Shown here piece after piece: positions 28,372 through 62,740 of a stretch of DNA of 64,000 bases (within the stretch, counting starts at the first letter, position 1; every line of letters begins with the position of its first letter). Source of the stretch: Lysobacteraceae bacterium (GTDB taxonomy: Bacteria > Pseudomonadota > Gammaproteobacteria > Nevskiales > Nevskiaceae); the NCBI GenBank assembly GCA_013823855.1, contig PNMW01000082.1, positions 62,001 through 126,000 of the forward strand. Direction: 5' to 3'. The notes beneath the pieces were generated by a model. It ran no database searches. It saw only the letters and a program-made list of their open reading frames with translations, and was not told where the DNA came from. Made by a program: the position numbers and the translations under genes.

Positions 28372-29607
28372 TCAGACGCCGGCTTCCGCGACCAGGTCCT
28401 TCATCGACACGGACTCGTCGGCGAGACGCTCGGCTGGCACCGTTGCCCGAGCCGCGACCAGCTTCTTCATCAGGCCGAAGTCGCGCAGCTGGCTGACCGC
28501 ATCGGCGGCAATCACCTTGCCCTGCTTCAGGTAGAACGCCGAGAACGTGCGGTTGGCGGTCGAGCCGCGCACCACCAGCTGGTCGAAGCCGCTCGACAAC
28601 CCGCACATCTGCAGCTTCAGCTCGTACTGGTCGGACCAGAACCACGGCAGCTCGTCGTAGGCCTTCGGCTGCCCCATGATCGCGCGCGCCGCGTAGCGCG
28701 CCTGCTCCATCGCGTTCGGCACCGACTCCAGGCGCACGCGCCCGCCGAGCAGCGCGCTCGGGCGGTTGGCGCAGTCGCCGGCCGAATAGATGTCCGGGTC
28801 CGAGGTCTGGCCGTGTTCGTCGACGACGATGCCGTTGTCGACCGCGAGCCCGGCCGCTGCGGCCAGTTCGCAATTGGGGATCAGGCCGATGCCGACGATC
28901 ACGGCATCGGCGTTGATGATGCTGCCGTCGACCAGCCGCACGCCGCTGACCGCGCCTTCGCCGACCAGCGCGGCGATCTGCACGCCCAGCTTGATGTCCA
29001 CACCTTCCTCGCGATGGACACGGGTGTAGAACTCGGAAATCTCCGGCGCGGTCACCCGCGCCAGCACCTGCGGCGCCGACTCCAGCACCGTCACCTTCAA
29101 ACCCTTCTTGACCGCAACCGCCGCGATCTCCAGGCCGATGTACCCCCCGCCGATGATCACCAGGCTGCGGCCTTCGACCAGCCGCTCGCGAATCGCCGCG
29201 GCATCGGCCACCGAACGCAGCGACAGCACGTTGCCGAGGTCGGCACCGGGAATCGGCAGCGGCCGGGCGCGCCCGCCGGTGGTCAGCGCCAGCTTGGTGT
29301 AGGCGATGGTCTGGCCGTCGGACAGGGTGACGGTCTTCGCGGCGCGATCGATCGCCGTCGCCGACACGCCGGCGATGAACTCGATTCGGTTCTTCTCGTG
29401 CACCGCAGCCGAGCGGATCGGCAGCTGGTCGGGCGTCACCGAGCCGGTGAGATAGCCCTTGGACAGCGGCGGCCGCTTGTACGGCAGCTCGGCTTCGTCA
29501 CCGACCATCACCACGCGCCCCGGAAAGCCCAAGGTCCGCAGTTCGGCGGCGAACTCGCTGCCAGCCTGGCCGGCACCGACGATCACCACGGTCGAATCGG
29601 CGTTCAT
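28372..29607 (-). CDS. Ferredoxin/rubredoxin reductase-type FAD oxidoreductase
   Basis: 411 aa. NAD(P)H-dependent flavoprotein of the putidaredoxin/rubredoxin reductase family, which passes electrons to a small iron-sulfur protein for P450 or alkane hydroxylases. FAD motif VGAGQAGSEFA (10-20), NAD motif IIGGGYIGLEIA (about 157-168) and the late IYSAGDCAN. GGGAG precedes the ATG. No ferredoxin, rubredoxin or P450 is in the window, so the partner is elsewhere. The upstream neighbour on the same strand is a DUF1302 protein. Confidence 0.88.
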   Translation of the reverse strand: MNADSTVVIVGAGQAGSEFAAELRTLGFPGRVVMVGDEAELPYKRPPLSKGYLTGSVTPDQLPIRSAAVHEKNRIEFIAGVSATAIDRAAKTVTLSDGQTIAYTKLALTTGGRARPLPIPGADLGNVLSLRSVADAAAIRERLVEGRSLVIIGGGYIGLEIAAVAVKKGLKVTVLESAPQVLARVTAPEISEFYTRVHREEGVDIKLGVQIAALVGEGAVSGVRLVDGSIINADAVIVGIGLIPNCELAAAAGLAVDNGIVVDEHGQTSDPDIYSAGDCANRPSALLGGRVRLESVPNAMEQARYAARAIMGQPKAYDELPWFWSDQYELKLQMCGLSSGFDQLVVRGSTANRTFSAFYLKQGKVIAADAVSQLRDFGLMKKLVAARATVPAERLADESVSMKDLVAEAGV

Positions 29608-32247: not shown

Positions 32248-32586
32248 GAAAATCCTCCTTTGATGAAGCTCGTCATTCGCACGTTTTGGTCGGGACCGGC
32301 ACTCCGGCGCCGTTGTCGCGCCGTGACCGGTCCTCGTTGCCTTCCTGCCCCGCGTAAGCCTTGCAGCCAACCCAGTTCCCGTCTCGGCGGAATTGCTGAA
32401 CGAACGGAGAATAAACAGCCATGTGCCAAATTGCAGCGCCTTTCACGCAGCGCCGTCCGACGGCGCCGGAGGCGACCCCGATTCCTGTGCGTCGAACCCG
32501 GATCGGCCGCGCCGAATCTCCGACATTTCCCGCTGATTCGGGCAAGGAAATTTGACACGTGTATAACGAACAACTAGATTCCAGCG
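32248..32586. other. Intergenic region between the DUF1302 gene and the TetR gene
   Basis: 339 bases without a convincing gene. It holds divergent promoters and, near the right end, one copy of the TetR operator described at 32554. A GC-rich block around 32450-32480 (GTCCGACGGCGCCGGAGG) may fold locally. No RNA gene or riboswitch fold was recognised. Confidence 0.5.
32554..32567 (+). promoter_or_regulatory. TetR operator copy 1
   Basis: GACACGTGTATAAC, centred on the palindrome ACACGTGT, 19 bases before the TetR ATG. A 12-of-14 match (GACGCGTGTCTAAC) lies after the gene at 33244, before the efflux genes. Confidence 0.6.
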
Positions 32587-33225
32587 ATGGAACCGCTTGA
32601 ATCGCGTCGTCATGAAGAGAAGGAGCGCCGCCGCGAGGACATCCTCGACGCGGCCGAATCGGTGCTGGCCGCCAAGGGCTACGACGACGCCAAGATGGAT
32701 GACATCGCGCGTGCCGCCCGAGTCTCCCGGGCGCTGCTGTACATCTACTTCAAGGACAAGCGGGAACTGCAGTTCGCGCTGTGCCTGCGCGGTCTGGACC
32801 TGCTGCGCCAGCGCTTCGCCGAAGCCCGCGGCCGACATCCGCGCGGGGTCGACCAGATCAAGGCGATCGGCCGCGCCTACATCGGCTTCGTTCAGGAATT
32901 CCCGGTGTATTTCGATGCATTGGCGCGCTCGGAAGCGCAGCACACCGAGCTTGAAGACGACGACAGCGTCTGCCACCGGATGATGCTGGCCGGCCGTCTC
33001 GTCCATCTGGAAACGATCACCGCGCTGCAGGCCGGCGAGAAGGACGGCAGCCTCCGTCCCGATCTCGGCGACCCGCTGCGGGTGGCGATGACGCTGTGGG
33101 GCTTCACCCACGGCGTCGCCCAGCTGGTGATGACCAAGAGCGAGATCTTCGCCCACGAGGGCATCGCCCTGAACGCCTTCGTCAACGACGCGATCGACAT
33201 GGCGACGCGCTCGATTGCCCGCTGA
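32587..33225 (+). CDS. TetR family regulator of the RND efflux operon
   Basis: 212 aa. HTH at about residues 35-57 (MDDIARAARVSRALLYIYFKDK), then a helical ligand domain of AcrR/TetR_C type. It is the first gene of a plus-strand set: regulator, outer-membrane factor, membrane fusion protein, RND pump. Repeated 14-base sites before this gene and before the pump genes suggest repression of both itself and the operon. The effector is unknown. Confidence 0.9.
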   Translation: MEPLESRRHEEKERRREDILDAAESVLAAKGYDDAKMDDIARAARVSRALLYIYFKDKRELQFALCLRGLDLLRQRFAEARGRHPRGVDQIKAIGRAYIGFVQEFPVYFDALARSEAQHTELEDDDSVCHRMMLAGRLVHLETITALQAGEKDGSLRPDLGDPLRVAMTLWGFTHGVAQLVMTKSEIFAHEGIALNAFVNDAIDMATRSIAR

Positions 33226-46449: not shown

Positions 46450-47278
46450 TCACGCCGCCGCGATCGTGGTCCGGTGCAGCAGCCGGTGATGGCCGGCGTA
46501 GCCGCCGGTGGCGGCGTGCAGCAGCGGGCGGTTGTCCCAGATCACCAGCATCTCCGCCTGCCCGCGATGACGGTACTGGAACGCCGGGCCTGACTGCCAC
46601 TGGTACAGCTCGAACAGCAGCGGCAGCGCTTCGGCATCGTCGATGCCGACGATGTAGCCGAAGAGGCCTTCGCGCCCGGTTTCCGGGTGGCAGCGGATCA
46701 GCGGATGTCGCTGCACGGCTTCGGCGTCCTTCGACGGCTTGATCACCATCGAGCGGCTCTGGCGGTCGCGCTCGCCGTACAGGCCGTCGGGTGCGTAGGC
46801 CTTCTTCGCCGAATGCAGCGCGATGCGGCCTTCGGGGCGCTGGCGCAGCCGGTCCGGCATCGCGTCGAGCGCGGCGTGCTGGTTGGCGAACAGGGTGTCG
46901 CCGCCGACCGGCGGAATGACGATGCCGTACAGGCAGGTGCCGGCCGGCGGCCGCGGCTGGAAGCTCCGGTCGCCGTGCCAGGTCTTCCGCGAACGGCGAC
47001 GAGCGTTCATCGGCGCGCCGTTCGACCGCGATGATGTGGCGGCGGCCGGCAATCGGCGCGACGAACGGGTCGTCGCCAAAACCGCCGAAGGCCTGCGTGA
47101 TCCGCTCCAGATCGTCGTCGCCGAGGCGCTGCTCGGGAAAGGCCAGCACGTGATGCTGCAGCCAGGCCTCGCGCAGCGCCGCGATCGTCTCGTCCGCCAG
47201 CGGCTGCGACAGGTCGACGCCGCTGACCGTGGCGCCGCAGGCCTGTCCGGAATCGGTGATGCGAAGGCCGCTGCTCAT
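46450..47278 (-). pseudogene. TauD/TfdA-type dioxygenase, frameshifted
   Basis: An Fe(II)/2-oxoglutarate dioxygenase split into two frames. The first runs from the ATG at 47276-47278 (ITDSGQACGATVSGVDLSQPL) to about 46987. The second then carries TWHGDRSFQPRPPAGTCLYG, PPVGGDTLFANQHAALDAMP and WDNRPLLHAATGG, ending at 46450. The catalytic HxD lies right at the junction (WHGD). One extra base near 46978-46990 explains it. Either a recent inactivation or a sequence error. Confidence 0.82.
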
Positions 47279-47543
47279 GCCGGCAGTCTGCAGGTCCGCA
47301 CCCGCGCGAGTGATGACCCTTGCCGGTCACGCAGAGACTGTCCACCCTGCGTCCCGGAGACCCGACGAAGCAGGGCCGACCCGGCATGGGCAATCTCTCC
47401 CAGCGGCGGCGGCTCGATGCAGGCGCCGGTTCGGTGAACAGTCGGTTACATTTCCTGACAGACGCCTCAGATGTCCGCGAATGGCCTGCAAATGGCCTCG
47501 TTCATGCTGGGCCGATGACCATCCAACGACCGGAGACCGACTG

Positions 47544-50237
47544 ATGATGCGATTGATCGTGGCCGCTGCCAGCGCCCTTGCCGCCGTTGGCAGTACGGCC
47601 ACCGCAGGAACCCTGGCGCCGCCGCAGGCCAACTTCGACGCCTCGTTCGCGGCGCCGGACAGCCCGGCGAATCCGGGGCTCCTCGCGCGCGCCGTCAGCA
47701 TCGCGCAGGCGGCACCGCGCCGGGCCGGGCTGGCATCGACGGTCGATGCCGCGCTTGGCGCCGCCACCTTCCTGTGGGCCGCCGACGGCGCGCCGGTCGC
47801 CAGCGTCGGTGCGCTGGCGCCGGCGGCACTGGCGGTCGCCCGCGCCCGCGAATACGCCGGCCGCCAGGCGGCGCTGCTCGGCGTCAGCCGCGCCGCCATC
47901 GACGCGGCGCAGGCGCGCGTCGTCCACGCCACCGCCGATGGCGTCCGAATCGTCCGCCTGCAGCAATCGGTGAACGGCATCGAGGTGTTCAACCGCCAGT
48001 TCAACGTGCTGATCGGCAGCCGCGGCGAGCACATCGCGACCTCCGGCTACTTCGCCGGCCCTACTGCCAGCAGCTCGCGTCAGCGGCTCGGCGCCGCGCA
48101 GGCGGTCGCCGCGGCGATCGCCGATGCCGGCGGCAGCGTGCTGGCACTGGCACTGCGCCCGTCGACGACGGCCGGGCCTTACACCTCGTTCCGGAAAGTC
48201 GCGACCGGCGACCTCGACCTGAGCCGCGAGCCGCGCGCCAGGCCGGTGTACTTCCCGGTCGGCGATCGTCTGGTCGCCGGCTGGTATGTCGAGGTGATCG
48301 GCGGCGGCAGCGACGGTTCGATGCGTGCCTACGGCACGGTGATCTCGGCGGAAACCGGCGCGGTGCTGTTCCGCAAGAACCTGGTCGAGCAGGCCGCCTA
48401 CAGCTACCGGGTGTTCGCCGACGCCGACGGCATCCACCAGCCGTTCGATGCGCCGATCGGCAACGGCTGGTCGCCGTTTCCCGGCGCTGCACCGAATGTC
48501 GTCCAGCCCCGGGTCACTGCGGTCGCCAATCTGGTGACTCTTGATGCAGGCCCGATCTCGACCGGCGATCCCTGGCTGCCGGCCGGTGCCACCACCACGA
48601 CCGGCAACAACACCGATGCCTATCTCGATACCGGCCTGCTGTTCGGCGCGCCGCTCAGTGCCACCCTGACCGACGGCTACCAGCCGCGCACCAGCGATGT
48701 CCGGGCCACGCTGACCGGCCCGGCCAGCTTCGATCACGCGATCGTCGCCGACGCCAATCCGGCCGAAGCGACGGCGCGCCAGGCGGCGATCGTCAACCTG
48801 TTCTATCTGAACAACTGGCTGCACGACATCTTCTACGACCGTGGCCTGAACGAAGCGGCCGGCAATGCCCAGACCCGCAACTACGGCCGTGGCGGCGAAG
48901 AGGGCGATGTCCTGCTCGCCGAAGGCCAGGATGCGTCCGGCCGCAACAACGCCAACATGCTGACGCCGGCCGATGGCGACAGCCCGCGGATGCAGATGTA
49001 CCTGTTCGATGGCGCGATCAAGGGCACGGTCAAGGTCACCGCGCCGGTACCGGCGCCGGGGCTGGTGTTCAGCACCGCCAGCTTCGGTCCACAGACCTTC
49101 GACGTCACCGCGCCGATCGCGTTGGCCCACGAGCGCGGCGGCATCTCGAGCAGCGACGGCTGCGCCGCCGGCCAGCCGCTGCCGCTCACCGGCACCACGC
49201 TGCCGGCCCTGCCCGACCGCAACCTGCGCGGCAAGATCGCGCTGATCGACCGCGGCAACTGCGCGTTCTCCACGAAGGCCAAGTTCGCATCGTCGAGCGG
49301 AGCGCTCGGCATCATCGTGATCAACAACGAGCCGCTCGCCGACCCGATCCCGATGGGCAATGCCGACGTGCCGCAGCTGCCGGTCAACCTGCCGCTGCCA
49401 CTGGCCACCGATGATCTGTACCGGCTGCCGACGGTGATGATCCGGCAGGACGCCGGCAACGCCCTGAAGGCGCAGCTGGCCGCCGGCAGCGCGCTGCGCA
49501 TGCGGATCAACCGCCAGCCCTCGATCGACTTCGACGGCACGCTGGACAACCAGATCATCGTCCACGAGTTCTTCCATTACGTCTCGAACCGCCTGGTCGG
49601 CGACGCCAGCGGCCTGTCGAACAATCAGGGTCGCGGCATGGGAGAAGGCTGGAGCGACTTCGCCGCCTTGCTGTTGACCGCACGGCCGGATGATCTCGCC
49701 GTACCGGGCAATGCCGGCTACGGCGGCGCCTATCCGCTGGCTTACTACTCGACCGCCAGCTTCAATGCGGCGTATCAGTACTTCGGCATTCGCCGCCAGC
49801 CGTTTTCGCGCAACTTCGCGTTCAACTCGCTGACCTTCCGGCACATCCAGGACGGCGCGGCGCTACCGGCCGGAGCGCCAATCGCGTTCGGCCAGGACGG
49901 CGCCACCAATTCGGAGGTGCACAACACCGGCGAGATCTGGGCCAACATGCTCTGGGAAGGCTATTCGACAATGCTGGCCAGCGGCCGCTACAGCTTCACC
50001 GGGACTCGCGAACGGATGATGGATTACCTGATCGCCGGCCTGAAGCTGACCCCGAACGCACCGACCATCCTCGAGGCCCGGGACGCCGTGCTGGCCGCAG
50101 CGATGGCCCGCTCGCAGGCCGATTACCTCGACTTGATCCGCGGCTTTGCGCGGCGCGGCGCCGGCGTCGGCGCGGTGGGCCCGGGACGCAATTCGACCGA
50201 CCAGGTCGGCGTCGTCGAAAGCTACGCAGCCCCGTAG
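47544..50237 (+). CDS. Secreted M36 (fungalysin-type) metallopeptidase
   Basis: 897 aa from the ATG at 47544, which has GGAG eight bases upstream. Signal peptide (LIVAAASALAAVGSTATAG), an N-terminal propeptide with FTP-like blocks (VRIVRLQQSVNGIEVFNRQFNVLI), the zinc site HEFFHYVSNRL with downstream EGWSDFAALLL, and an inserted PA domain (NLRGKIALIDRGNCAFSTKAKFASSS). The ends of the domain are typical of bacterial M36 enzymes. Secreted protease, probably nutritional. Confidence 0.92.
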   Translation: MMRLIVAAASALAAVGSTATAGTLAPPQANFDASFAAPDSPANPGLLARAVSIAQAAPRRAGLASTVDAALGAATFLWAADGAPVASVGALAPAALAVARAREYAGRQAALLGVSRAAIDAAQARVVHATADGVRIVRLQQSVNGIEVFNRQFNVLIGSRGEHIATSGYFAGPTASSSRQRLGAAQAVAAAIADAGGSVLALALRPSTTAGPYTSFRKVATGDLDLSREPRARPVYFPVGDRLVAGWYVEVIGGGSDGSMRAYGTVISAETGAVLFRKNLVEQAAYSYRVFADADGIHQPFDAPIGNGWSPFPGAAPNVVQPRVTAVANLVTLDAGPISTGDPWLPAGATTTTGNNTDAYLDTGLLFGAPLSATLTDGYQPRTSDVRATLTGPASFDHAIVADANPAEATARQAAIVNLFYLNNWLHDIFYDRGLNEAAGNAQTRNYGRGGEEGDVLLAEGQDASGRNNANMLTPADGDSPRMQMYLFDGAIKGTVKVTAPVPAPGLVFSTASFGPQTFDVTAPIALAHERGGISSSDGCAAGQPLPLTGTTLPALPDRNLRGKIALIDRGNCAFSTKAKFASSSGALGIIVINNEPLADPIPMGNADVPQLPVNLPLPLATDDLYRLPTVMIRQDAGNALKAQLAAGSALRMRINRQPSIDFDGTLDNQIIVHEFFHYVSNRLVGDASGLSNNQGRGMGEGWSDFAALLLTARPDDLAVPGNAGYGGAYPLAYYSTASFNAAYQYFGIRRQPFSRNFAFNSLTFRHIQDGAALPAGAPIAFGQDGATNSEVHNTGEIWANMLWEGYSTMLASGRYSFTGTRERMMDYLIAGLKLTPNAPTILEARDAVLAAAMARSQADYLDLIRGFARRGAGVGAVGPGRNSTDQVGVVESYAAP

Positions 50238-51960: not shown

Positions 51961-52743
51961 TCAGCCGGGCTTGCGGCTACGCTTCGACAGGAAGGCGGTC
52001 ACCGCCTTGATGAAGCCGGGGTCGCGCCCGAGCCGGGTCTGGCCCGCGGCTTCGTGTTCGAGCTGCGCGGGCAGATCGGCATCGAGGGCGGCATCCAGCG
52101 CGGCGCGGGTCTCGCGCAGCGCCGCCGGTGATTTCGCCGCCAGCCGCTCGGCCAGCGCCTGGGCTGCCGCCGGCAGCGCCTCGTCGTCGACCACCTGCCA
52201 GATCAGGCCCCACTGGGCGGCGGTTGCGGCATCGAGCGCGTCGCCGAGCAGCGACAGGCCGCGTGCCCGCGCCCGACCGATCAGGCGCGGCAGCTGCCAG
52301 GTCGCGCCCATGTCCGGCATCAGGCCGAGATCGATGAACAGGTAGCGGAACGAGGCCGAGCGCGCCGCGATCACCAGGTCGCCGGCCAGCGCCAGTGCCG
52401 CGCCACCGCCGGCAGCGATGCCGTTGACCGCCACCACCACCGGAATCGGCAGCGTGCGCAGCCGCTCGACGATCACGTTGTAGTGGCTGCGCATCGCGGC
52501 ACCGAGGTCGAGGTCCTGAGGCGACACGTCGGCCAGGCTGCCGGCACCGAGGTCGGCGCCGGAGCAGAAGGCCCGGCCGCTGCCGGTCAGCACCAGTGCC
52601 CGCGCCTGCTCGTCCAACGCGCGGTCGAGGCCGGCGAGCAGCGCGTCGATGGTCGCCACATCGAGGCTGTTCAGCGTCTCGGGGCGGTGGAGGATCAGCG
52701 TCGCCACCTGGGCGTCAAGCCGGTACAGGACGTGATCAGTCAT
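51961..52743 (-). CDS. Enoyl-CoA hydratase/isomerase family protein
   Basis: 260 aa from the ATG at 52741-52743. Crotonase motifs SGRAFCSGADLGAG (about 62-75) and VNGIAAGGGAALALAGDLVIAA (about 107-128). The pattern IDLGLMPDMGATWQLPRLIG is common in PaaG-type isomerases/hydratases. Probably beta-oxidation or aromatic acyl-CoA metabolism. Monocistronic, convergent with the HD gene. Confidence 0.88.
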   Translation of the reverse strand: MTDHVLYRLDAQVATLILHRPETLNSLDVATIDALLAGLDRALDEQARALVLTGSGRAFCSGADLGAGSLADVSPQDLDLGAAMRSHYNVIVERLRTLPIPVVVAVNGIAAGGGAALALAGDLVIAARSASFRYLFIDLGLMPDMGATWQLPRLIGRARARGLSLLGDALDAATAAQWGLIWQVVDDEALPAAAQALAERLAAKSPAALRETRAALDAALDADLPAQLEHEAAGQTRLGRDPGFIKAVTAFLSKRSRKPG

Positions 52744-52968
52744 GGTGTTGTCGAGGGATCGGGCTTGCTGCCGCATTCGGCGGCACGTCGTGCTGCGGAA
52801 GGACGGATAGGTTCACGGAACGCGCCCGGGAGCGCTGCGCAACGCGTCGGGCGACCTTAGCGCAGCCGTTTGGCCGCGGGCAATTTCCCGTGCGAGTGTC
52901 ACGCGTTCGGTGACTGCGTCCGCAGGGCGGGTCGAACGATCGGCGCTCCGCCCGACCGGCGAGCCGGT

Positions 52969-54021
52969 TCAGCGATCGCCGATCAGCGGCAGCAGCAGCG
53001 CCGGGTCCGGCAGGCTCAGGCCGATCTGTCGCGCCACCGCATCGAGCTTGCCGCGGGCGCCCGCTTCGAGCTGGGTCAGCAGCAGGATCACCGGCCGGAT
53101 GTCCGGCAGCCGGAACACGGCGCGGACGATATCGGCAAAGATCGCGTCGTCCTGGATCACCGGCAGGTTGATGACCCGCTTCTGCAGCGGCGGCTCCATG
53201 CGCGCCACGATCGGCAGCAGCACATCCCAGCGACCGATCGCCTGGGTGTTGCGGACGATGTTGTCGAGGGCGGATTCCGGCAGCGCGCCGGTGATCGCCG
53301 CCAGCTTCTGCTGGAGCGCGACATCGACGCCGGAGATCAGCGCCAGCGCTTCTCCCCACAGCTCGGACGATCCGGTCGCGGCATGGCTGACGATGGCACT
53401 CAACCGCGCCGGCGCGATGCGTTCGATGATGTCGCCAAGCCGCTCGGTGCTTTCGGCGAAGAAGGCGATATGCAGCAGCCTGGCATCGTCGGTGATCGCA
53501 TCGACCACCGGCCGGATCGCGTCGAGCGCGATCAGGTCGATGAAGCGCCCCATGGTCACGTACTCGCCGCGATGGGCCAGCTCGCGCGCGATGGCGACGA
53601 TCAGGTGCTTCGGAAAGCCGGCGATCAGCTCCTGCGCCGAGCGCGGATCCAGTTCGATGCAGGCATCGACAAGGAACGGCAGCTTGAGCTTCTCGGCGAT
53701 CTCGATCGCCCTGGAGGCTGGCACCAGGCCGCAGACCCGTGCGCAGATCAGCGGGCCGATCACCTTTTCGATGATCAGCACCAGGATCGGGATCGGCAGC
53801 AACCGGCTGGCGGTCGCCATGTTGTGGAAGCGCTTGCGATCGGCATCGAACATCGCCGCCGTCGCCTGTTCGCGCAGCGCCCGGATCAGCGGCGCTTCGA
53901 GCTTGCCGAGCCAGGCCAGTGACGCGTCCTCGACATGACAGAGCCGCGCCAGCTTGATCACCTCGGCCCGCTGGGCCAGCGACAGGCCGAGCAGCGCCGC
54001 GTTCGTGGCTGCCGTGGCCAT
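52969..54021 (-). CDS. Uncharacterised helical protein, 350 aa
   Basis: No family recognised. Mostly helical with regular Leu/Ala/Ile periodicity resembling an alpha-solenoid: repeated units such as LPIPILVLIIEKVIGPLICARVCG and LIVAIARELAHRGEYVTMGRFIDLIALDAI. There is no clear signal peptide. Starts 3 bases after the stop of the small protein gene and is last in the envelope cluster, suggesting a cytoplasmic or membrane-edge partner of the MMPL transporter. Confidence 0.65.
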   Translation of the reverse strand: MATAATNAALLGLSLAQRAEVIKLARLCHVEDASLAWLGKLEAPLIRALREQATAAMFDADRKRFHNMATASRLLPIPILVLIIEKVIGPLICARVCGLVPASRAIEIAEKLKLPFLVDACIELDPRSAQELIAGFPKHLIVAIARELAHRGEYVTMGRFIDLIALDAIRPVVDAITDDARLLHIAFFAESTERLGDIIERIAPARLSAIVSHAATGSSELWGEALALISGVDVALQQKLAAITGALPESALDNIVRNTQAIGRWDVLLPIVARMEPPLQKRVINLPVIQDDAIFADIVRAVFRLPDIRPVILLLTQLEAGARGKLDAVARQIGLSLPDPALLLPLIGDR

Positions 54022-54024
54022 CGT

Positions 54025-54258
54025 TCAGAGATCCAGGATCTTGCGGACCGCGCCACGCAGCAGCAGCGGCACGTGGCTCAGCGATTCGGTCAGCGCCGCA
54101 TCGACCTGCGCCTTCTGGCGCAGCTTGGCCGCCGCCATCAGCGCGGCCAGCTTCGCCAGTTCGGCGGCTTCGAGCGCATCGAGACCGGCCGGTGGCGTGC
54201 GATCCAGCGCGGACCGCAGCGCCTCCAGCGAGGCTTCCCGACTATCGGCCCTGGCCAC
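54025..54258 (-). CDS. Uncharacterised small protein, 77 aa
   Basis: Starts with GTG at 54256-54258. Short Ala/Leu-rich helical protein (LEALRSALDRTPPAGLDALE...AVRKILDL) with no known domain and no signal. Twelve bases after the MMPL stop and three before the 350-aa gene, so it is probably cotranscribed with both. Confidence 0.6.
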   Translation of the reverse strand: MARADSREASLEALRSALDRTPPAGLDALEAAELAKLAALMAAAKLRQKAQVDAALTESLSHVPLLLRGAVRKILDL

Positions 54259-54270
54259 GTCGCGAAACCC

Positions 54271-56871
54271 TCAGTGTGCGGTCTTGGCCGGAGCGAGATT
54301 CTTCGGCATTGTCGCTGGCGCCTCGCCTGGCTTCGGCGGGAACAGGAAAGCGGCGATCGCCGGCAGGCCGAGCACGGCGCCGAACATGTTGGCGGTGAAC
54401 ATGAACAGCAGCAGCAGACCCATGTCGATCTGGAACTGCAGCTGGGACAGCAGCCAGGTCGACACCGAGGCCGCCAGGGTCACGCCGGTGAAGATCACCG
54501 CCTTGCCGGTGCCCCGGAGCGTCTCGAAGTAGGCCACGCGCAGGGTCTTGCCTTCCTTCAGGCCCGACACCAGCACGCCATAGACATAGATGCCGTAGTC
54601 GACGCCGATGCCGACCGCCAGCGCCAGCACCGGAAGCGTTGCCACCTTCATGCCGATATCCAGTGCCGCCATCACTGCGTAGCCCATCTCCGACACCAGC
54701 GCCAGCGGCAGGATGATGCAGACGATCGCCTTCCATTCGCGGAAGCACATCCACAGCAGGATCAGGATGACCACATAGACCAGCAGCACCACGCGGCCTT
54801 CCTGCTCGTGCACGACCTCGTTGGTCGCCGCCATCACGCCGACATTGCCGGTCGCCAGCGCAAAGTTCACCGGGCATTCCAGGGTCATGCCCTCATAGCT
54901 GGCCTGCAGTTCGCCCTGGCGCTTCTTGGCCGCATCGAGCTTGGCCGGATCGCTGGCCGTGCCTTCGCCGAGCCTGAACACATCGAGGTTGGCCGCCTTC
55001 AGCTTCTGGAAGGTGTCGTACTTGGTGGCGCAGTACTCCGGCTTGGTGTCCGGGGCCTTGGCGTAGAAGTCCTTGGCGTTCTCGTCGTTGAATTTCTTCA
55101 CTTCATCGACGATGTGGCTGATCGTTTCGGCCTTGTGATCCTTGGTGAACAGGTAGATCGCCAGCGCGTCGCAATCGTCATTGAGCAGGCCGGTGGAGGT
55201 CGGCACCAGCGCCGTGGCCTGGGCCAGCGCGAACTGGTTGCGCGGCAGCACCAGCGCGTTGAGGCGGCCTTCCGACAGCCCCTGATAGACCAGCTTGGCG
55301 AAGGTCAGCAGCGACAAGGTCGACTGCACGCCGTCGGTGTTCTCCATCTTCCACGCGAAGCGATCGGCCTGATCCATCAGCTGGTAGCTGACGCAACCGT
55401 TCGGCCGGGTTTCGGCGATCACCTTGAAGATGTCGACGGCGATCTGGAAATTGTCGGTGATCGCGTTGAAATCCTGGTTGAAGCGCGAGTCCGGACGCAG
55501 CTCCGGCACGCCCTTCAGCGCATCGCCGACCTTCAGATCCGCCTTGCCCCAGAGCGCCCAGCCGAGCATCGCGCCGCAGGACACCAGCACCGCAGTGGCC
55601 ACCGCCGGCTTGGTGACACCCGACAGCCACCACCAGATCGGATCGAGCTTGGCGTCCTTCTTGGTCTGACGGGCGATGAAGGCATCGACGTCCTTGAGCC
55701 GGACCATGGTCAGCCAGATCGGCACGAACATCTTGTTGGCGACGATGATCGCCAGACCGCCGAGCACGGCGTTGATCGACATCTCCTGGATGATCTGGAT
55801 CTTGATCAGGTAGATGGTCGCGAAGCCGGCGACGTCGGTCAGCAGCGCGATGGTGCCGGCGATCGCCAGACGGCGGAAGGTTTCGAGCGAGGCGTCGAAA
55901 CTGGACTTGCCGGCGTGGACTTCATCGACCCAGGCGTTGACGTACTGCACGCCATGCGACACCGATACCGCGAGAATCAGGAACGGCACCAGGATGGCGA
56001 ACGGATCGACGCCGTAACCGAGCGTCTTCAGCAGCCCCATTTCCCAGACCACCGCGACCACCGACGAGAACAGCGGAATCATCGCCAGCTTGAACGAGCC
56101 GCAGTAGATCCACAGCAGGAAGCCAGTGATGATCAGGGTCAGGAAAAAGAACGCGGCGACCTCCAGCGAGGCCTTGGTCATGTCGTCGACGATCTTCGCG
56201 AAGCCGATGATGTGGACCTTGATACCGTCCTTCTCGTACTTGGCGCGCAGCTTCTCGAGGTACTGGCCGACCTTCAGGTAGTCGAGCTTTTCGCCGGTCT
56301 GCGGATCGACTTCGAGCAGCTCGGTCAGGATCATCGCGCCGCGCTGGTCGTTGGTGACGATGCGGCCGATCACCTGCGCCTTGGCGACGTTCGACTTCAC
56401 CTTCTGCAGCACTTCCGGCGTCGGCTGGTAGTCCGGCGGAATCACCGTGGCGCCGGACAGGCCGCCTTCGACGTTCTCGACGTAGTTGACGTTCGGCGTG
56501 AACAGGCTGGTCACGCGGGCGCGATCGACACCCGGCATGAAGAAGACCTCGTCGTTGGCCTTCTGCAGCGTGTCCATGAACTCCGGCGTGTAGATATCGC
56601 CGGTGCCCTCATCCTTGATCAGCGCAACCAGCACCGTGTTGGCGCCACCGAAGTCGCGGTAGTACTCGCGGAACTTCTCCATGTACGGATGTTCCAGCGG
56701 CACCGATTTGAGCCAGCCGGCGTCCGGCTGCAGCCGTGCCATCTGTACCGTGAAGAACAGGGTCATGACGATCAGGACCCAATGGGTGATCTTGCGCCGC
56801 GCATAGATCACCGGCTCGACCGTCTTGAGAATCTTGTCGGCCCACACGCCGCCTACTGCTGCACCTGCCAT
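54271..56871 (-). CDS. MMPL/RND-family lipid or hydrophobe transporter
   Basis: 866 aa. Two SSD-like RND halves: one helix (about residues 28-48), periplasmic loop, five-helix block (about 235-400, with FLTLIITGFLLWIYCG and ILAVSVSHGVQYVNAWVDE), second loop with Cys residues, then a late block (LLVYVVILILLWMC; GIGVDYGIYVYGVLVSGLKEG). The Asp in GVDYGIY is the expected proton relay. MMPL/HpnN-type proteins move lipids, hopanoids or other hydrophobes. Downstream of the YCF48, DUF1329 and DUF1302 genes on one strand. Confidence 0.9.
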   Translation of the reverse strand: MAGAAVGGVWADKILKTVEPVIYARRKITHWVLIVMTLFFTVQMARLQPDAGWLKSVPLEHPYMEKFREYYRDFGGANTVLVALIKDEGTGDIYTPEFMDTLQKANDEVFFMPGVDRARVTSLFTPNVNYVENVEGGLSGATVIPPDYQPTPEVLQKVKSNVAKAQVIGRIVTNDQRGAMILTELLEVDPQTGEKLDYLKVGQYLEKLRAKYEKDGIKVHIIGFAKIVDDMTKASLEVAAFFFLTLIITGFLLWIYCGSFKLAMIPLFSSVVAVVWEMGLLKTLGYGVDPFAILVPFLILAVSVSHGVQYVNAWVDEVHAGKSSFDASLETFRRLAIAGTIALLTDVAGFATIYLIKIQIIQEMSINAVLGGLAIIVANKMFVPIWLTMVRLKDVDAFIARQTKKDAKLDPIWWWLSGVTKPAVATAVLVSCGAMLGWALWGKADLKVGDALKGVPELRPDSRFNQDFNAITDNFQIAVDIFKVIAETRPNGCVSYQLMDQADRFAWKMENTDGVQSTLSLLTFAKLVYQGLSEGRLNALVLPRNQFALAQATALVPTSTGLLNDDCDALAIYLFTKDHKAETISHIVDEVKKFNDENAKDFYAKAPDTKPEYCATKYDTFQKLKAANLDVFRLGEGTASDPAKLDAAKKRQGELQASYEGMTLECPVNFALATGNVGVMAATNEVVHEQEGRVVLLVYVVILILLWMCFREWKAIVCIILPLALVSEMGYAVMAALDIGMKVATLPVLALAVGIGVDYGIYVYGVLVSGLKEGKTLRVAYFETLRGTGKAVIFTGVTLAASVSTWLLSQLQFQIDMGLLLLFMFTANMFGAVLGLPAIAAFLFPPKPGEAPATMPKNLAPAKTAH

Positions 56872-56923
56872 ATGCCTTCCCCGTGTTCTTCTGGTTCTTT
56901 ACCGCGGCCGTGAAATCAGCTGC

Positions 56924-58030
56924 TCAGGGCTTCGCGAAGCGCTGGACGCCCGAGGTCCCGACGACGATCAGGCTGTCCGCCGTGGCCAGCCCGGCATTCA
57001 TGTTGATGTTGGTCGGAAGCTGCTGACGGACCAGTTGCCCGGCAGCGAGGTCCGCTTTCATGATCCGGCCATTGGCGCCGAACAGCAGCACCGAGCCGTC
57101 GTCGGCCACCGTGCCGCCGAACAGGCTTTCGGTGTCTTCCGAGGCCAGACGAGCCCAGCCCGCCACCTCGCTGATCGGATTGCTGGCGCTACCCGAGGCT
57201 TCCGGATTGGCCGCCGCTTCGCGCAGCGCGGCGAGATCGGCTTCGGTCAGCGGTGCGGCCTTCGACAGGTCGGCGGCATGGAAGGCATTACCGCGCAGGC
57301 CGAACAGCACGATGCCGGCATCACCGCTGGCCACGGCTCCGAAATAGGAGCCGGTGTACGGCGACTTGAGCTGCTTCCAGTTCGCGCCCTGATCGCCTGA
57401 TACGGCAATGAAGCCGCGCTCGCCGGTCAGCACCAGCGAGCCGTTGCCGAGCCGGGTCAGCGTGTACAGGTTCGGCTGATCCTCGAATGCCGGGGACTCC
57501 ACCGTTTCCCAGGTCTCGCCGCCGTCGGCGGTCTTCTGCAGCCGGCCGTTGCCACCGGCGACGAAGCCGTTCTGGGCGTCGAAGAACAGCACATCGAAAT
57601 AGGCCTTGCCCCAGGCAGCATCGAACTGCACCAGGGTCCAGGTGCTGCCGCCGTCCTCGGTGGCGACGATGGTGCCGTCGTAGCCGACCGCCCAGCCGTG
57701 GCTGGCATCGGCAAAGAAGACCCGCACCAGCGTGGCGTCGACAGGCACCTGCACCTGCTTCCACTCGCTGCCGTCGCTCGACAGCAGGATGCCGCCGCGC
57801 TGGCCGACCGCGACCAGCTTGTCGCCGGCCCTGGCGACGCTCAGCAGCAGGCCGGACGCGGCTCGTGGCGCGAGCACCGACGGCCGTGCGACCAGGGTGG
57901 TGTCGACCCCGGTATCGGCTTCGCCGCTGTCTTCCTCTTCCTGGGCGAGCAGCCAGGCCGGGAACGCGAGAGTCGCCGCGAGCGCCGAGGCGATCAGCGC
58001 CGGTCGCAGCTTGTTGGTCTGGAACGTCAT
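56924..58030 (-). CDS. YCF48-like beta-propeller protein, exported
   Basis: 368 aa from the ATG at 58028-58030. Signal peptide (LRPALIASALAATLAFPAWLLAQ), then YCF48/BNR-type repeats: GWAVGYDGTIVATEDGGSTW, GFVAGGNGRLQKTADGGETW and GFIAVSGDQGANW. YCF48 proteins assemble membrane complexes in cyanobacteria; homologues next to MMPL genes are common in these gammaproteobacteria. Probable periplasmic accessory of the MMPL/DUF1329/DUF1302 system (inference). Confidence 0.88.
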   Translation of the reverse strand: MTFQTNKLRPALIASALAATLAFPAWLLAQEEEDSGEADTGVDTTLVARPSVLAPRAASGLLLSVARAGDKLVAVGQRGGILLSSDGSEWKQVQVPVDATLVRVFFADASHGWAVGYDGTIVATEDGGSTWTLVQFDAAWGKAYFDVLFFDAQNGFVAGGNGRLQKTADGGETWETVESPAFEDQPNLYTLTRLGNGSLVLTGERGFIAVSGDQGANWKQLKSPYTGSYFGAVASGDAGIVLFGLRGNAFHAADLSKAAPLTEADLAALREAAANPEASGSASNPISEVAGWARLASEDTESLFGGTVADDGSVLLFGANGRIMKADLAAGQLVRQQLPTNINMNAGLATADSLIVVGTSGVQRFAKP

Positions 58031-58098
58031 GCAAGGCCCCCTGAAGGCTTCGAGAAGATGGCCGGCGCCCCCGCCGGCCATCGATGCCACTGCGCGGC

Positions 58099-59646
58099 TT
58101 ATTTGGTCTGCGACTTGCGGTTCAGACTTCCGGGCGAGAAGTAGTCGTCCTTGAAGCTGATCTTGAAGTCGGAAATCTTGTCTTCGTTGGACAGCGCGGT
58201 GACGAAGTAACGGCCGCTCTGCAGGTCGTAGATGATTTCCGGAATGCCGGTGACGGTCGGCACGAACGGCACCGAGATCAGCTGCGCTTCCTGGACCTTC
58301 CAGAGCTGGTCGCGGTTGTCGTAGGCATCGACGGCGGCGATCGCCCAGCTGTCCTCGTCGACATAGAAGCGGCGCTTCTTGAACTGGTGGCGCAGGCCGT
58401 CGCGGATCGTCGCCTCGACGATCCAGACGCGGTGCAGCTCATAGCGCGACAGGTTCTGGTTGATGTGGCCCGGACGGATGATGTCCTTGTACTTGATCAG
58501 CGGCGCATTGATCAGGAACGAGTTGTAGGCGATGTACATCTCCTTCTTGCCGATCAGCTTCCAGGTGTAGCGGTCGAGCGCACCGTTGAACATGTCGACC
58601 TGATCGTTGAACTGCTCGCCGTCGGTGCCGATGTAGGGATTGTCGTAACCCACGTCCGGCGCCTTGTTCACGCGACCGAGACCCGGGTTGAAGATCCAGG
58701 CATTGCGGCCCGAGCCTTCGGCCCCCGAGGTCTCATGCACCAGCGTCAGCTGGCCGGCCACGCGCGCCGGGGCCACGACATTGGAGAGGTAATACAGCAG
58801 GATCTTGGTTCCCGGCGCCGGTTCGGCGAGGTTCGAGTACTTGAACTTCACGTCCTCGATCAGCTTGGTGATCTTGTAGGTGCCGTCCTGCTTGACCACG
58901 GCCTGATTGTTGAAGCGCCGCACCGCTGAACCGCGGTAGCGCATCTTGTGGTTCCAGATCACCTCGGCGCCGCTGGTCGGTACCGGGAACGGGAAGCCGA
59001 GCACGGCGCCGGCGATCTCGTCGGTGCCCTTGAGTTCGGCACTGGTCGCGTTCTTGATCGTCGCGGCGTTGATCTCGTCCGGGAAGAAGGCCGAGCGCAA
59101 GGTCGGGTAGACGATCATCTTGTAGGTCGGGTACTTGGCGAACATCGCCTTCTGCCCTTCCGTCAGCTTGTCGGCGTACTTCGCGACGTCAGCTTTGGTG
59201 ATGATGAACATCGGCTTTTCGAACTTGCCGCCACCGCCGATCTGCTGGCGCTGCTTGGTGGCCAGCGTCTTCAGGTCCGGCGGCAGCTTGGCGATGATCG
59301 CGTCGATCTGGCCGGAGATCTTCGGGTAGTCGGCCAGGGTGAAGCTGTCGAGATATTTCAGCAGCGCGTCGAAATCGCCCGGCGAGGTCTTGCGGATATC
59401 CTCGAACTTCTGGCGCAGTTCCTCGAGCTTGGCCGGCGTCAGGCCTCGCACTTCGGCGTCGAAGTTCTTGCCACCGACCCAGGCGGGGATCGAGCCATCG
59501 GCATTGCCGGCCGCGATGGCGCCGACCGGCGTCAGTTCCTTGCCGAGCTTGGCGGCATCGGCATCCGACGCCTTCGCGTAGGCGCTCGATGCTGCGCCCA
59601 TGCCAACGGCGCCCGCGAACATGAACCAACTGATGCGTTTCAACAT
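58099..59646 (-). CDS. DUF1329 periplasmic protein
   Basis: 515 aa. Signal peptide (MLKRISWFMFAGAVGMGAASSAYA), then the DUF1329 body with AAKLGKELTPVGAIAAGNADGS near the start and a beta-rich core (EVIWNHKMRYRGSAVRRFNN; YELHRVWIVEATIRDGLRHQF; RRFYVDEDSWAIAAVDAYD). The fold resembles LolA/LolB-like lipid carriers, from knowledge of the family. AGGAG precedes the ATG. Directly downstream of the DUF1302 gene; the usual partners occur together. Confidence 0.92.
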   Translation of the reverse strand: MLKRISWFMFAGAVGMGAASSAYAKASDADAAKLGKELTPVGAIAAGNADGSIPAWVGGKNFDAEVRGLTPAKLEELRQKFEDIRKTSPGDFDALLKYLDSFTLADYPKISGQIDAIIAKLPPDLKTLATKQRQQIGGGGKFEKPMFIITKADVAKYADKLTEGQKAMFAKYPTYKMIVYPTLRSAFFPDEINAATIKNATSAELKGTDEIAGAVLGFPFPVPTSGAEVIWNHKMRYRGSAVRRFNNQAVVKQDGTYKITKLIEDVKFKYSNLAEPAPGTKILLYYLSNVVAPARVAGQLTLVHETSGAEGSGRNAWIFNPGLGRVNKAPDVGYDNPYIGTDGEQFNDQVDMFNGALDRYTWKLIGKKEMYIAYNSFLINAPLIKYKDIIRPGHINQNLSRYELHRVWIVEATIRDGLRHQFKKRRFYVDEDSWAIAAVDAYDNRDQLWKVQEAQLISVPFVPTVTGIPEIIYDLQSGRYFVTALSNEDKISDFKISFKDDYFSPGSLNRKSQTK

Positions 59647-59730
59647 GGATTGCTCCTCCTCAGGAAACAGTGTTGTTCGTGACTGCGACGGCCACCAGCG
59701 CGGCCACTGCAGCGATGACGGGAACTGCGC

Positions 59731-61917
59731 TCAGAACGTGTAGCCGATCTGGAAACCGATGATGTCGCGGTCGCGCTGGGTGTTGACGGTACCGCCGCCG
59801 GTCGAGCCCTGGTACAGCAGCTGGCCGGTCCACGGGCCGCCGTTCTCGATTTCGGTGGCGACCGCGTACTGGATACGGTCCTCGATGAAGTTCTGGATCG
59901 GCAGCGGCGCGATGCCGTAGACGTCGTGGCCGAAGAAGATCGACGGCTTGAGGTTCAGACCCCAGAACAGGTTGTTGTATTCGAAGCGGGTGAAGATGCG
60001 GTAGCCGGTCGAGAAGCTGTCGGCGAAGCCGCTGGTCTGCTGCGTTGGGTTCAGCGAGCGGGTGTCCGGCGTGCCATTGGGACGGCCGGTGCCGTCGGCG
60101 CCGGGGCTCGCGTGCGAGCCGTTGTTGTCGCCGCCCTCGAACTGCAGCCGGCTGCGGCTCGGCATGCCGACGACGTGGGTCAGACCGACTTCGACGAGGA
60201 TGATCACCTGGTCGGCGCCGAACGGATTCTCCGACGCGCCGATCGCCCGGATGCCGGTGATGTCGAGCTGCTGCACCGGCAGGCGCTCGTAGCCGTTGAT
60301 GCGCTGGTTCGGCTGGATCTCGATCCCGCGATAAGCCGACAGGAAGTCCGGCACCGCACTGCGCGACGAGGGCAGCGTGACGTTCGACGCCGCTGCGGGC
60401 AACAGCACCGGCAGGCCGTTCAGCAAGGCGGTGACCTGACCGAGCAGCTGCTGCGGGTTGGAGGTGACGATGTCGCCGATCGAGCCCTGCAGCGAGGCGA
60501 TGGTCTGGGCGATGAACTCCGGCGAGGCGCCGAGCGTGATGTCCTGACGTGGCAGCGACGGCTGCAGGCCTGCGAAGAACACGTCGGACGCCGACACCTG
60601 CAGCGGCATGTTCGGGCGCATCGACCATTCACCGGCGACCGACCACTTGCCGATATTGGTGTTGAAGCTGATGCCGATCAGCTGGATGTTCTCGGGGTAG
60701 GCGAAGAACACCTTTTCCGAATCGATCGGCGCCGGCTCCAGTCCGGTCTCCGGATTCAGGCCGACGAAACCGTTGCAGGCGGTGAACGCCTCGACGAAAC
60801 CAGCGGCGTTGCGGGCGCAGGATTCGTCGGTGGCGATGACACTGAAGTACGGCAGCCGGCTGTGGTAGTTCAGCGCGTAGAAGCCGAGTTCGGTGCCGCC
60901 ATTGAAGTCCGGCAGATACCAGGTGAACTTGCCGCCGACCTGGCCCTGATTGTTCGGCTGCGCGTACTTCAGCGGCAGCACGTCGGCAGTGAACGAGGAG
61001 TTCGAGATCGCGTTGATCGGGAACGGGATGCGCTGCAGCTTGTTCGGGTCGTCGTGGAACTGGCCGACCGAGATGTTGAAGTTGTCGTTCTTGTAGAAAT
61101 CGATATCGGAGTTGAAGGCGCCGCCCGGATCGACCACCACCGGACGCCAGGCGAGCTGGTAGATGAAGTCCAGCGACATGCCCTCGCCGATCTGCGTGTT
61201 CAGCGTGAACAACGGCGTCGAGCGGAATACTTCGCTGATCGGCGTGCCGGGATGGCGCAGCAGGCGCGCATCGGGCGGCTGCAACTCGTTGACCGCGTTC
61301 AGCGCCAGGAAATTCGACTCGCCCCAGCGCACATGCTGGTAGCCGATGGTGGCGTTGAAATCGTGGTCGTAGAGCTGGAAGGCGCGGCCGACGAAGGCGT
61401 CGCGGATCTGGAAGTCCTGGCCGAGCGGGGCGCCGCGGCGATGCGGACGACCTTCGCGGGCGTTCTGGAACGTGGTATCGGCGTTGCGCTCGCTGAACCG
61501 GTAATTGACCGGATCGAAGAAGGCGATGACGCCGAGCTTGAAGTTCCAGTCTCCGTAGCTGCCGGCCGCTTCGGTCGACAGCTTGGCGATCAACGCCACC
61601 GGATCCCATTGCCGGTAGTTCAGGTCGCCATCGTCCTTGTTGGTGGCGATGAAGGCACCCGGCGCATCGACCAGACGCTGGTTCGGCTCCGGATCGCCGG
61701 TGAACGACAGGCAGCCGTCCGGACACAGGTCCGGATTGTTGCTGAGCTTGGCCAGCAGGCGCGCATCCGGCTTTTCGGCGCGGAATGCCGTCGACAGCGA
61801 GATCGTGCTCTTCCAACTGCCGACCAGTTCGCCGTACTCGAAGTCCAGCGCCTGGGCCGGCGTCAGGTTGAAAGCGATCGCGGCCAAGGTCGCGCTGTTC
61901 ATCAGCTTGCGTTTCAT
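59731..61917 (-). CDS. DUF1302 family envelope protein, 728 aa
   Basis: Start ATG at 61915-61917 with GGAGAGAG upstream. Signal peptide (KLMNSATLAAIAFNLTPAQA), then the DUF1302 core: DFEYGELVGSWKSTISLSTAFR, YQHVRWGESNFLALNAVNEL and the terminal beta-strand IIGFQIGYTF ending in Phe, as in outer-membrane barrels. Shares an overall plan with the 831-aa copy at 29752 but is diverged. First gene of the envelope cluster DUF1302-DUF1329-YCF48-MMPL. Confidence 0.9.
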   Translation of the reverse strand: MKRKLMNSATLAAIAFNLTPAQALDFEYGELVGSWKSTISLSTAFRAEKPDARLLAKLSNNPDLCPDGCLSFTGDPEPNQRLVDAPGAFIATNKDDGDLNYRQWDPVALIAKLSTEAAGSYGDWNFKLGVIAFFDPVNYRFSERNADTTFQNAREGRPHRRGAPLGQDFQIRDAFVGRAFQLYDHDFNATIGYQHVRWGESNFLALNAVNELQPPDARLLRHPGTPISEVFRSTPLFTLNTQIGEGMSLDFIYQLAWRPVVVDPGGAFNSDIDFYKNDNFNISVGQFHDDPNKLQRIPFPINAISNSSFTADVLPLKYAQPNNQGQVGGKFTWYLPDFNGGTELGFYALNYHSRLPYFSVIATDESCARNAAGFVEAFTACNGFVGLNPETGLEPAPIDSEKVFFAYPENIQLIGISFNTNIGKWSVAGEWSMRPNMPLQVSASDVFFAGLQPSLPRQDITLGASPEFIAQTIASLQGSIGDIVTSNPQQLLGQVTALLNGLPVLLPAAASNVTLPSSRSAVPDFLSAYRGIEIQPNQRINGYERLPVQQLDITGIRAIGASENPFGADQVIILVEVGLTHVVGMPSRSRLQFEGGDNNGSHASPGADGTGRPNGTPDTRSLNPTQQTSGFADSFSTGYRIFTRFEYNNLFWGLNLKPSIFFGHDVYGIAPLPIQNFIEDRIQYAVATEIENGGPWTGQLLYQGSTGGGTVNTQRDRDIIGFQIGYTF

Positions 61918-62026
61918 CAACTCTCTCCCCACCAGCATTCAGGAATCGCGTCGTCGCGCGATGTTTGTTCTTGTGACGTGTGTTCGGCGCTCCCGAGCAG
62001 CGGCGCCGGCCAAGGCCTTGCGCAAG

Positions 62027-62740
62027 TCAGTCGCCGAGCAGTCCGCGGCTGACGAAGTGAACGTAATCGCGGATCAGGTCATCGAAGCGACCCGCGTACA
62101 AAGTCGAGTGATCGCCACCGAACGGCGAGTGGCGCAGACCGCCGATCGCCGTCAGGCCGAAGATCGTCGAACTCATGCCGAGCAGCAACTGGAACTGCAG
62201 CTTTTCGCGCTGCTTGCCCGGATGCCGCGTCGCCAGCCGCGGCTCGATCTGGTTCAGGAACGGCGCGCACTGCTTGAGCACCAGCGACTGTCCCAGATCG
62301 CCGCCATCGGAAGCCAGACGGGCAACGAAGCGGATTGCATCGCGTCCGGTGTCGTCGGCATGGAACACCTGGATCAGCGGCATCACCAGCCCGGCGACCA
62401 GATCTTCGTCAGTCAGTGTGCCGCTGCGCTCGAGCTGGGAAATCTCGTCGATCACCGCCGCGAAGTAAGGCTCGAATTTCGCGCGCACGAACTCGGCAAC
62501 GGCGATGACCAGACCCTGCTTGTCGTTGAAGTGGTAGTGGATCGCCGACTGATTGCCCTGCCCGGCCTTCTGCACGATTTCGCGCAAAGACACCGCGCCG
62601 ATCGCCCGCTCCGCGAACAGCTTCATCGCTTCGCGCACCAGCGCGTCGCGCGTGCTGACGCCGGATTCCGCACCGCGCGGACGCCGCACGGCACGGGTCG
62701 CTGGCTTGGGCGTGGCGGATTTCTTGACAGCCATCAGCAT
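62027..62740 (-). CDS. TetR family transcriptional regulator
   Basis: 237 aa from 62740, or 235 from the ATG at 62734. Basic N-terminal tail (VKKSATPKPATRAVRRPRG), then HTH (about residues 50-75, VSLREIVQKAGQGNQSAIHYHFNDKQG) and a C-terminal TetR domain. Divergent from the LCM-type methyltransferase gene and upstream, on the same strand, of the DUF1302 cluster, so it may control either. AATGCG-N16-CGCATT lies in the divergent gap. Confidence 0.87.
   Translation of the reverse strand: MLMAVKKSATPKPATRAVRRPRGAESGVSTRDALVREAMKLFAERAIGAVSLREIVQKAGQGNQSAIHYHFNDKQGLVIAVAEFVRAKFEPYFAAVIDEISQLERSGTLTDEDLVAGLVMPLIQVFHADDTGRDAIRFVARLASDGGDLGQSLVLKQCAPFLNQIEPRLATRHPGKQREKLQFQLLLGMSSTIFGLTAIGGLRHSPFGGDHSTLYAGRFDDLIRDYVHFVSRGLLGD

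Follow-up and report, generated by a model that had tools for sequence, protein, structure and literature searches.

An unnamed gene couple, P77-P350, beside an AmeABCD-type gene set in a Nevskiaceae bacterium

An AmeABCD-type core in a catabolic setting

A cassette for monoterpene efflux, AmeABCD of Castellaniella defragrans, was described in 2018. It consists of a DUF1302 protein, a DUF1329 protein, a COG4447 protein and an HAE3 pump, and its composition and organisation are described as conserved in the parts of the article consulted (PMC6394551). Deletion of ameABCD lowered monoterpene tolerance and gave somewhat more Nile Red in de-energised cells; the deletion and parent strains hardly differed in Nile Red efflux when this was followed in real time (PMC6394551). 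In Pseudomonas putida, PP_0765/PP_0766 (DUF1302/DUF1329) and PP_2018/PP_2019 are needed on Tween20, and PP_0765 has been modelled as a barrel (PMC10866462). There, the DUF1302 and DUF1329 proteins work alongside a protein of the periplasm and an efflux transporter, in connection with growth on a fatty ester. The locus numbers put the P. putida genes in two places, unlike the single run described below. Finally, the anaerobic benzene degraders ORM2a, which belong to another phylum, express a nanopod gene cluster with DUF1329, YCF48 and MMPL members, for which the direction of transport is stated as not yet confirmable (excerpts of PMC13101534).

We analyzed 64,000 nucleotides of contig PNMW01000082.1 from a bacterium of the Nevskiaceae (hereafter, the window). 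A sequence-only reading had proposed a trans-envelope system of six genes within it. All six are present at the positions given there, on the minus strand and in one tight run. We further found that the run is flanked on the same strand by a TetR gene upstream and an enoyl-CoA hydratase gene downstream, neither of which had been included. In the direction of transcription, the features are:

62027..62740, minus strand: TetR-family regulator, distantly PsrA-like (TetR_N, 6.9e-10)
59731..61917, minus strand: DUF1302 protein, AmeA-like, presumed outer-membrane barrel (PF06980, 1.9e-123)
58099..59646, minus strand: DUF1329 protein, AmeB-like, LolA-like, periplasmic (PF07044, 2.8e-130)
56924..58030, minus strand: YCF48-like propeller, AmeC-like, periplasmic (PSII_BNR/YCF48 PF14870, 1.2e-21; PDB 2xbg, 4.7e-25)
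54271..56871, minus strand: MMPL/HAE3 RND pump, AmeD-like (MMPL PF03176, 1.6e-15)
54025..54258, minus strand, GTG start: P77, 77 aa, presumably helical and cytosolic
52969..54021, minus strand: P350, 350 aa, presumably a cytosolic alpha-solenoid with weak MgtE_N likeness
51961..52776, minus strand: enoyl-CoA hydratase/isomerase (ECH_1, 3.5e-54)

The DUF1302 reading frame extends over 59731-61938, with the better ribosome-binding site at the 61917 start that had been chosen before, while the YCF48-like frame extends over 56924-58090 and yields a signal peptide from the later ATG at 58030. The best NCBIfam match of the TetR protein is PsrA (47.5 bits vs a cut-off of 300), and its gene is found in the same position in five congener loci (L047, L048, L050, L051, L072). 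Only 12 bp separate the pump gene from P77 and 3 bp separate P77 from P350, which speaks for one transcript covering the three; the enoyl-CoA hydratase gene follows P350 after 193 bp. A promoter scan of the run gave no consensus promoters, and terminator-like sites were no more frequent there than in shuffles.

Since AmeABCD has the identical gene set in the identical order (PMC6394551, as far as consulted), the DUF1302-DUF1329-YCF48-HAE3/MMPL core is not new, and the proposed trans-envelope set is a fair reading of the locus. The A-B-C-D order is complete, with an HAE3 match below the model cut-off; signal peptides are visible by eye on the DUF1302, DUF1329 and YCF48 proteins, and hydropathy gives the fourth protein an inner-membrane RND topology. 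Both cassettes have a catabolic setting, a monoterpene island for AmeABCD and, instead, the TetR and enoyl-CoA hydratase genes here. The ORM2a nanopod cluster resembles the window in its porin-like protein, DUF1329, YCF48-related protein, MMPL transporter and extra cytoplasmic proteins, although those extra proteins are annotated as a universal stress protein and a hypothetical protein (PMC13101534, in excerpt). We found no mention of P77-P350 in the consulted parts of the AmeABCD description (PMC6394551), nor of a similar helical couple in those of the P. putida description (PMC10866462).

The DUF1329 protein also matches LolA_like PF17131 in Pfam (2.5e-10). NCBIfam searches with it and with the DUF1302 protein gave nothing, and a sequence search with the latter reached no solved structure at E<=1. 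Because our own AF2 model of the DUF1302 protein is poor (pLDDT 37.6, from a 6-row alignment), we base its assignment as a barrel on the P. putida model reported earlier (PMC10866462, consulted in part), the signal peptide and a C-terminal Phe seen by eye. DUF1302 and DUF1329 each match 11 times in the genome, one DUF1329 match being weak, and contig 1 carries a second complete DUF1302-DUF1329-YCF48-MMPL cassette (L099). Elsewhere in the window, a second DUF1302 gene (29752-32370, 37% identical to the first) lies in front of a ferredoxin-reductase-like gene (28372-29607), with a TetR gene (32587-33225) nearby on the other strand, and 47229-50237 encodes a long M36 metallopeptidase whose nearest NCBIfam model is myxosortase-dependent, under its cut-off.

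The nearest NCBIfam model to the pump is TIGR00921 (HAE3; 1.1e-40, 139.5 bits, under the cut-off of 351.9). HpnN/MmpL-type transporters belong to the same pump family and match partially (HpnN, 6wu0, 1.7e-07); HpnN is described as working without periplasmic or outer-membrane partners (PMC6394551, in part). Hydropathy gives 11 segments above 1.6, a weaker first segment read by eye, and two large loops. MmpL3-type pumps carry Asp-Tyr in both halves. TM4 reads SVSHGVQY, with no acidic residue, in 12 of 12 aligned pumps (7 of them the window and close congeners), and TM10 reads G[IV]GVDYG in all 11 aligned pumps that reach it (GVDYG in the window). Judged from these motifs, the proton path may be one-sided.

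P77 and P350 form a gene couple

P350 is found in 44 of 61 related genomes, including that of the window. For the pairing count and a tree, we used 46 P350 loci, the window and 45 others, and left out L017-L046, which overlap longer stretches. In 45 of the 46 loci, a profile places the P77 stop on the same strand, from 69 bp inside to 98 bp ahead of the first P350-like residue; in the 46th (L078), P77 was found by eye in another frame. A one-strand check of L017-L046 gave P77 in 11 of the 30, corresponding to the loci on the plus strand. Thus, P77 and P350 are a gene couple. We rejected a P77-P350 fusion in L078, as P77 is in another frame there and ends before P350. Ka/Ks values against congeners (4 pairs each) are 0.15-0.20 for P350 and 0.14-0.32 for P77, and both behave as genes kept by selection.

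Neither protein has a Pfam family at E<=0.01 or an NCBIfam match, and the best PDB hits by sequence were at E 0.47 for the P350 profile and E 0.082 for the P77 profile. The AF2 model of P350 is all helix (mean pLDDT 74.0, poorer over the first 100 residues). In fold comparison, the model reached a VIA Z of at most 10.4, under the ~13 common for repeats, with matches to solenoids in general, the armadillo, HEAT and PUF kinds included; Foldseek gave no match at E<=0.001. P350 frames range from 252 to 845 aa across loci, the longest (L076) having many tandem helical repeats at its C-terminal end. P77 is characterized by a C-terminal VPxLLRGxVRKIL motif in an alignment of 31 members. The MgtE N domain, a helical superhelix, shares a weak profile likeness with P350, which is free-standing and longer: 35 of 38 members match MgtE_N (PF03448) at E<=1, the best at 5.9e-07, and the window P350 at E 0.079 and 13.9 bits, below the Pfam gathering score of 25.9. 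No signal peptide was seen by eye on P77 or P350. From their sequences both look cytosolic, and they are therefore unlikely to be parts of an envelope conduit. We recognized no literature on the couple in open-access texts, where it has no name to search by.

Outside the related genomes, P350 matches are sparse: 7 of 274 genomes in a class sample, 4 of the 7 outside the order, and 4 of 398 in a phylum sample that includes the window's own genome, two of these weak. No P350 relative was confirmed in viral contigs. In another family of the class, L107 (9273-9926) and L108 (9067-9747) encode ~220-aa proteins that are weakly P350-like, and no P77 was detected in these two stretches.

Genomic company of the couple

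A survey of the gene order, suggested together with the original proposal, showed the full DUF1302-DUF1329-YCF48-pump-P77-P350 order in the window and in L047, L048, L050, L051, L072 and L078 (P77 by eye in the last), and an order cut by the contig end in L049. In L086 the couple lies behind the pump, with no DUF1302 found within the stretch. The couple thus immediately follows the pump gene in the window and six congeners, and likewise in L078 and L086, which come from other genera of the family. It is also found before DUF1302 in L073, L074, L076 and L080, and after it in L067 and L068.

We compared this linkage with chance over 41 loci, leaving out the congeners L047-L051, which are 80-89% identical to the window. 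Each genome entered with a single DUF1302 count and a rounded size, and nearness was scored with our own DUF1302 profile. In 16 of the 41 loci, DUF1302 is found no more than 9 kb from P350, where 2.18 would be expected under even spread. This model takes genes to be evenly distributed, although both kinds may do no more than collect in islands of lipid catabolism. It lies within 400 bp in 6 of 41 (expected 0.08, or 0.23 with a 1.1-kb neighbour slot on each side). Collapsing seven close clades leaves 4 of 31 (expected 0.19 with the same slots), a result reached in 11 of 200,000 simulations. Any core gene is within 400 bp of P350 in 16 of the 46 loci, seven being the window and its congeners, and none is in the other 30. 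The P350 tree implies at least 6 changes of adjacency state, as read from a quick tree in which 15 of 43 inner branches are weak.

The couple and the core also occur apart. Six genomes of one family (G041, G050, G051, G053, G057, G058) have P350 but neither a DUF1302 match at 1e-10 nor a pump relative at 1e-60, and G060 has P350 and one DUF1302 with no pump relative at 1e-60; P77 is present in the six of these that were examined for it (G041, G050, G051, G053, G058, G060). Conversely, 9 of 17 genomes lacking P350 have a pump relative at 1e-60 (G006, G012, G013, G015, G017, G024, G025, G035, G040). The best of these relatives are 39 to 58% identical, so that not all need be the same pump, and G013 has a 91% identical pump fragment that ends at a contig edge, where a couple may have been lost. 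None of seven pump loci selected for comparison, L099 of the window's own genome among them, has the couple, and pumps at 64-65% identity in G039 and G043 have no couple beside them (L100, L101). The suggestion that the two proteins are new accessory parts therefore holds in that they are linked to the set, and does not hold for a fixed component: P350 without a pump, pump relatives without P350 and the missing signal peptides indicate an optional cytosolic companion rather than a structural part.

Frequently, the couple lies near acyl-CoA genes. Acyl-CoA dehydrogenase genes are found 0 to 1.3 kb upstream of P77 in L061, L074, L080 and L073. An AMP-forming ligase gene directly follows P350 with a 4-bp overlap in L061 and is further off in L076 and L080. 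Enoyl-CoA hydratase genes follow P350 after 104 bp in L055, 14 bp in L058, 34 bp in L059 and 189 bp in L048, as in the window. Clusters with named representatives place SDR, PGAP1-like hydrolase and beta-lactamase-fold esterase genes near the couple in L052, L053, L056, L066 and L089, four of these five also with FadE. Other neighbours do not fit lipids, namely an ATP-synthase-type ATPase (L087), a Na/Pi carrier (L091) and an AraC regulator (L081), and several of those scanned have no family. Outside the order, the neighbours of the couple are ClpB in L096 and, on its two sides, HemN and patatin genes in L106, with no pump next to it. DUF445-like and Abi_alpha-like (PF14337) clusters, with one representative each named, are each near the couple in 10 of 41 loci, both together in L060, L063, L065, L066, L075, L077 and L089. 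A wax-ester synthase/DGAT was considered as the couple's partner and rejected, since it is present in 59 of 61 relatives whether or not they carry P350; G054 and G059, the only two without it, have no P350 either.

Possible roles of the core and the couple

Our leading interpretation, which we hold with about even confidence, is that the AmeABCD-type core moves hydrophobic compounds across the envelope, and that P77-P350 is a cytosolic couple in lipid or hydrocarbon catabolism that is co-made with the pump. The core would join a proton-driven inner-membrane HAE3 pump to the periplasmic LolA-like DUF1329 protein, the YCF48 propeller and the DUF1302 outer-membrane protein, with a cargo here of perhaps acyl lipids or a related growth substrate. 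P350 would be an alpha-solenoid with P77 as its small partner, both serving lipid or hydrocarbon catabolism from the cytosolic side; the likeliest function is that of a scaffold or regulator for acyl-CoA enzymes that handle the substrate of the pump. The couple may have come to adjoin the pump as a way of producing transport and breakdown functions jointly. It is the company of acyl-CoA genes that leads us to prefer a cytosolic role in lipid catabolism that is optional next to the pump.

As to direction, RND pumps are exporters in general, and this counts against a core that imports its substrate. The lower tolerance and higher Nile Red of the ameABCD deletion likewise favour efflux, tempered by the nearly unchanged real-time assay (PMC6394551, in part). 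Import nevertheless has slightly less than an even chance in our estimation, given that such genes are needed for growth on Tween20 (PMC10866462), can sit in catabolic islands, and bear on growth on phenanthrene, for which a DUF1329 mutant of Delftia is cited (in PMC13101534; all from partial texts).

For the couple, the closest competitor to a role tied to the pump's substrate is that P77-P350 serves only cytosolic lipid metabolism, such as ester or storage-lipid turnover, and shares an operon with the pump without contacting it. The genomes with P350 and no pump relative fit this, as does the L052/L053 group with its SDR, hydrolase, esterase and FadE genes. Against it, the couple has joined DUF1302 and the pump repeatedly, in several genera and not always on one side, and we give this possibility tentative credence, well short of even. 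We regard as unlikely a bolder version of the preferred substrate-linked role, in which the couple docks on HAE3 lipid pumps and passes cargo to or from acyl-CoA enzymes, making transport and breakdown one channel, and has been attached several times in the order. Least probable is a gating role in which P350, as a separate cytosolic protein, would do for the pump what the MgtE N domain does for its channel: the widespread MgtE_N likeness and the position directly behind the pump would suit it, but the window's own match is under the gathering score, and P350 genomes without such a pump and pumps without the couple both oppose it.

The P77-P350 family, which is unnamed in Pfam and NCBIfam, is the less known part of this locus. 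As the couple tracks DUF1302/DUF1329 systems and acyl-CoA genes, it may provide a handle on the compounds that these systems serve.
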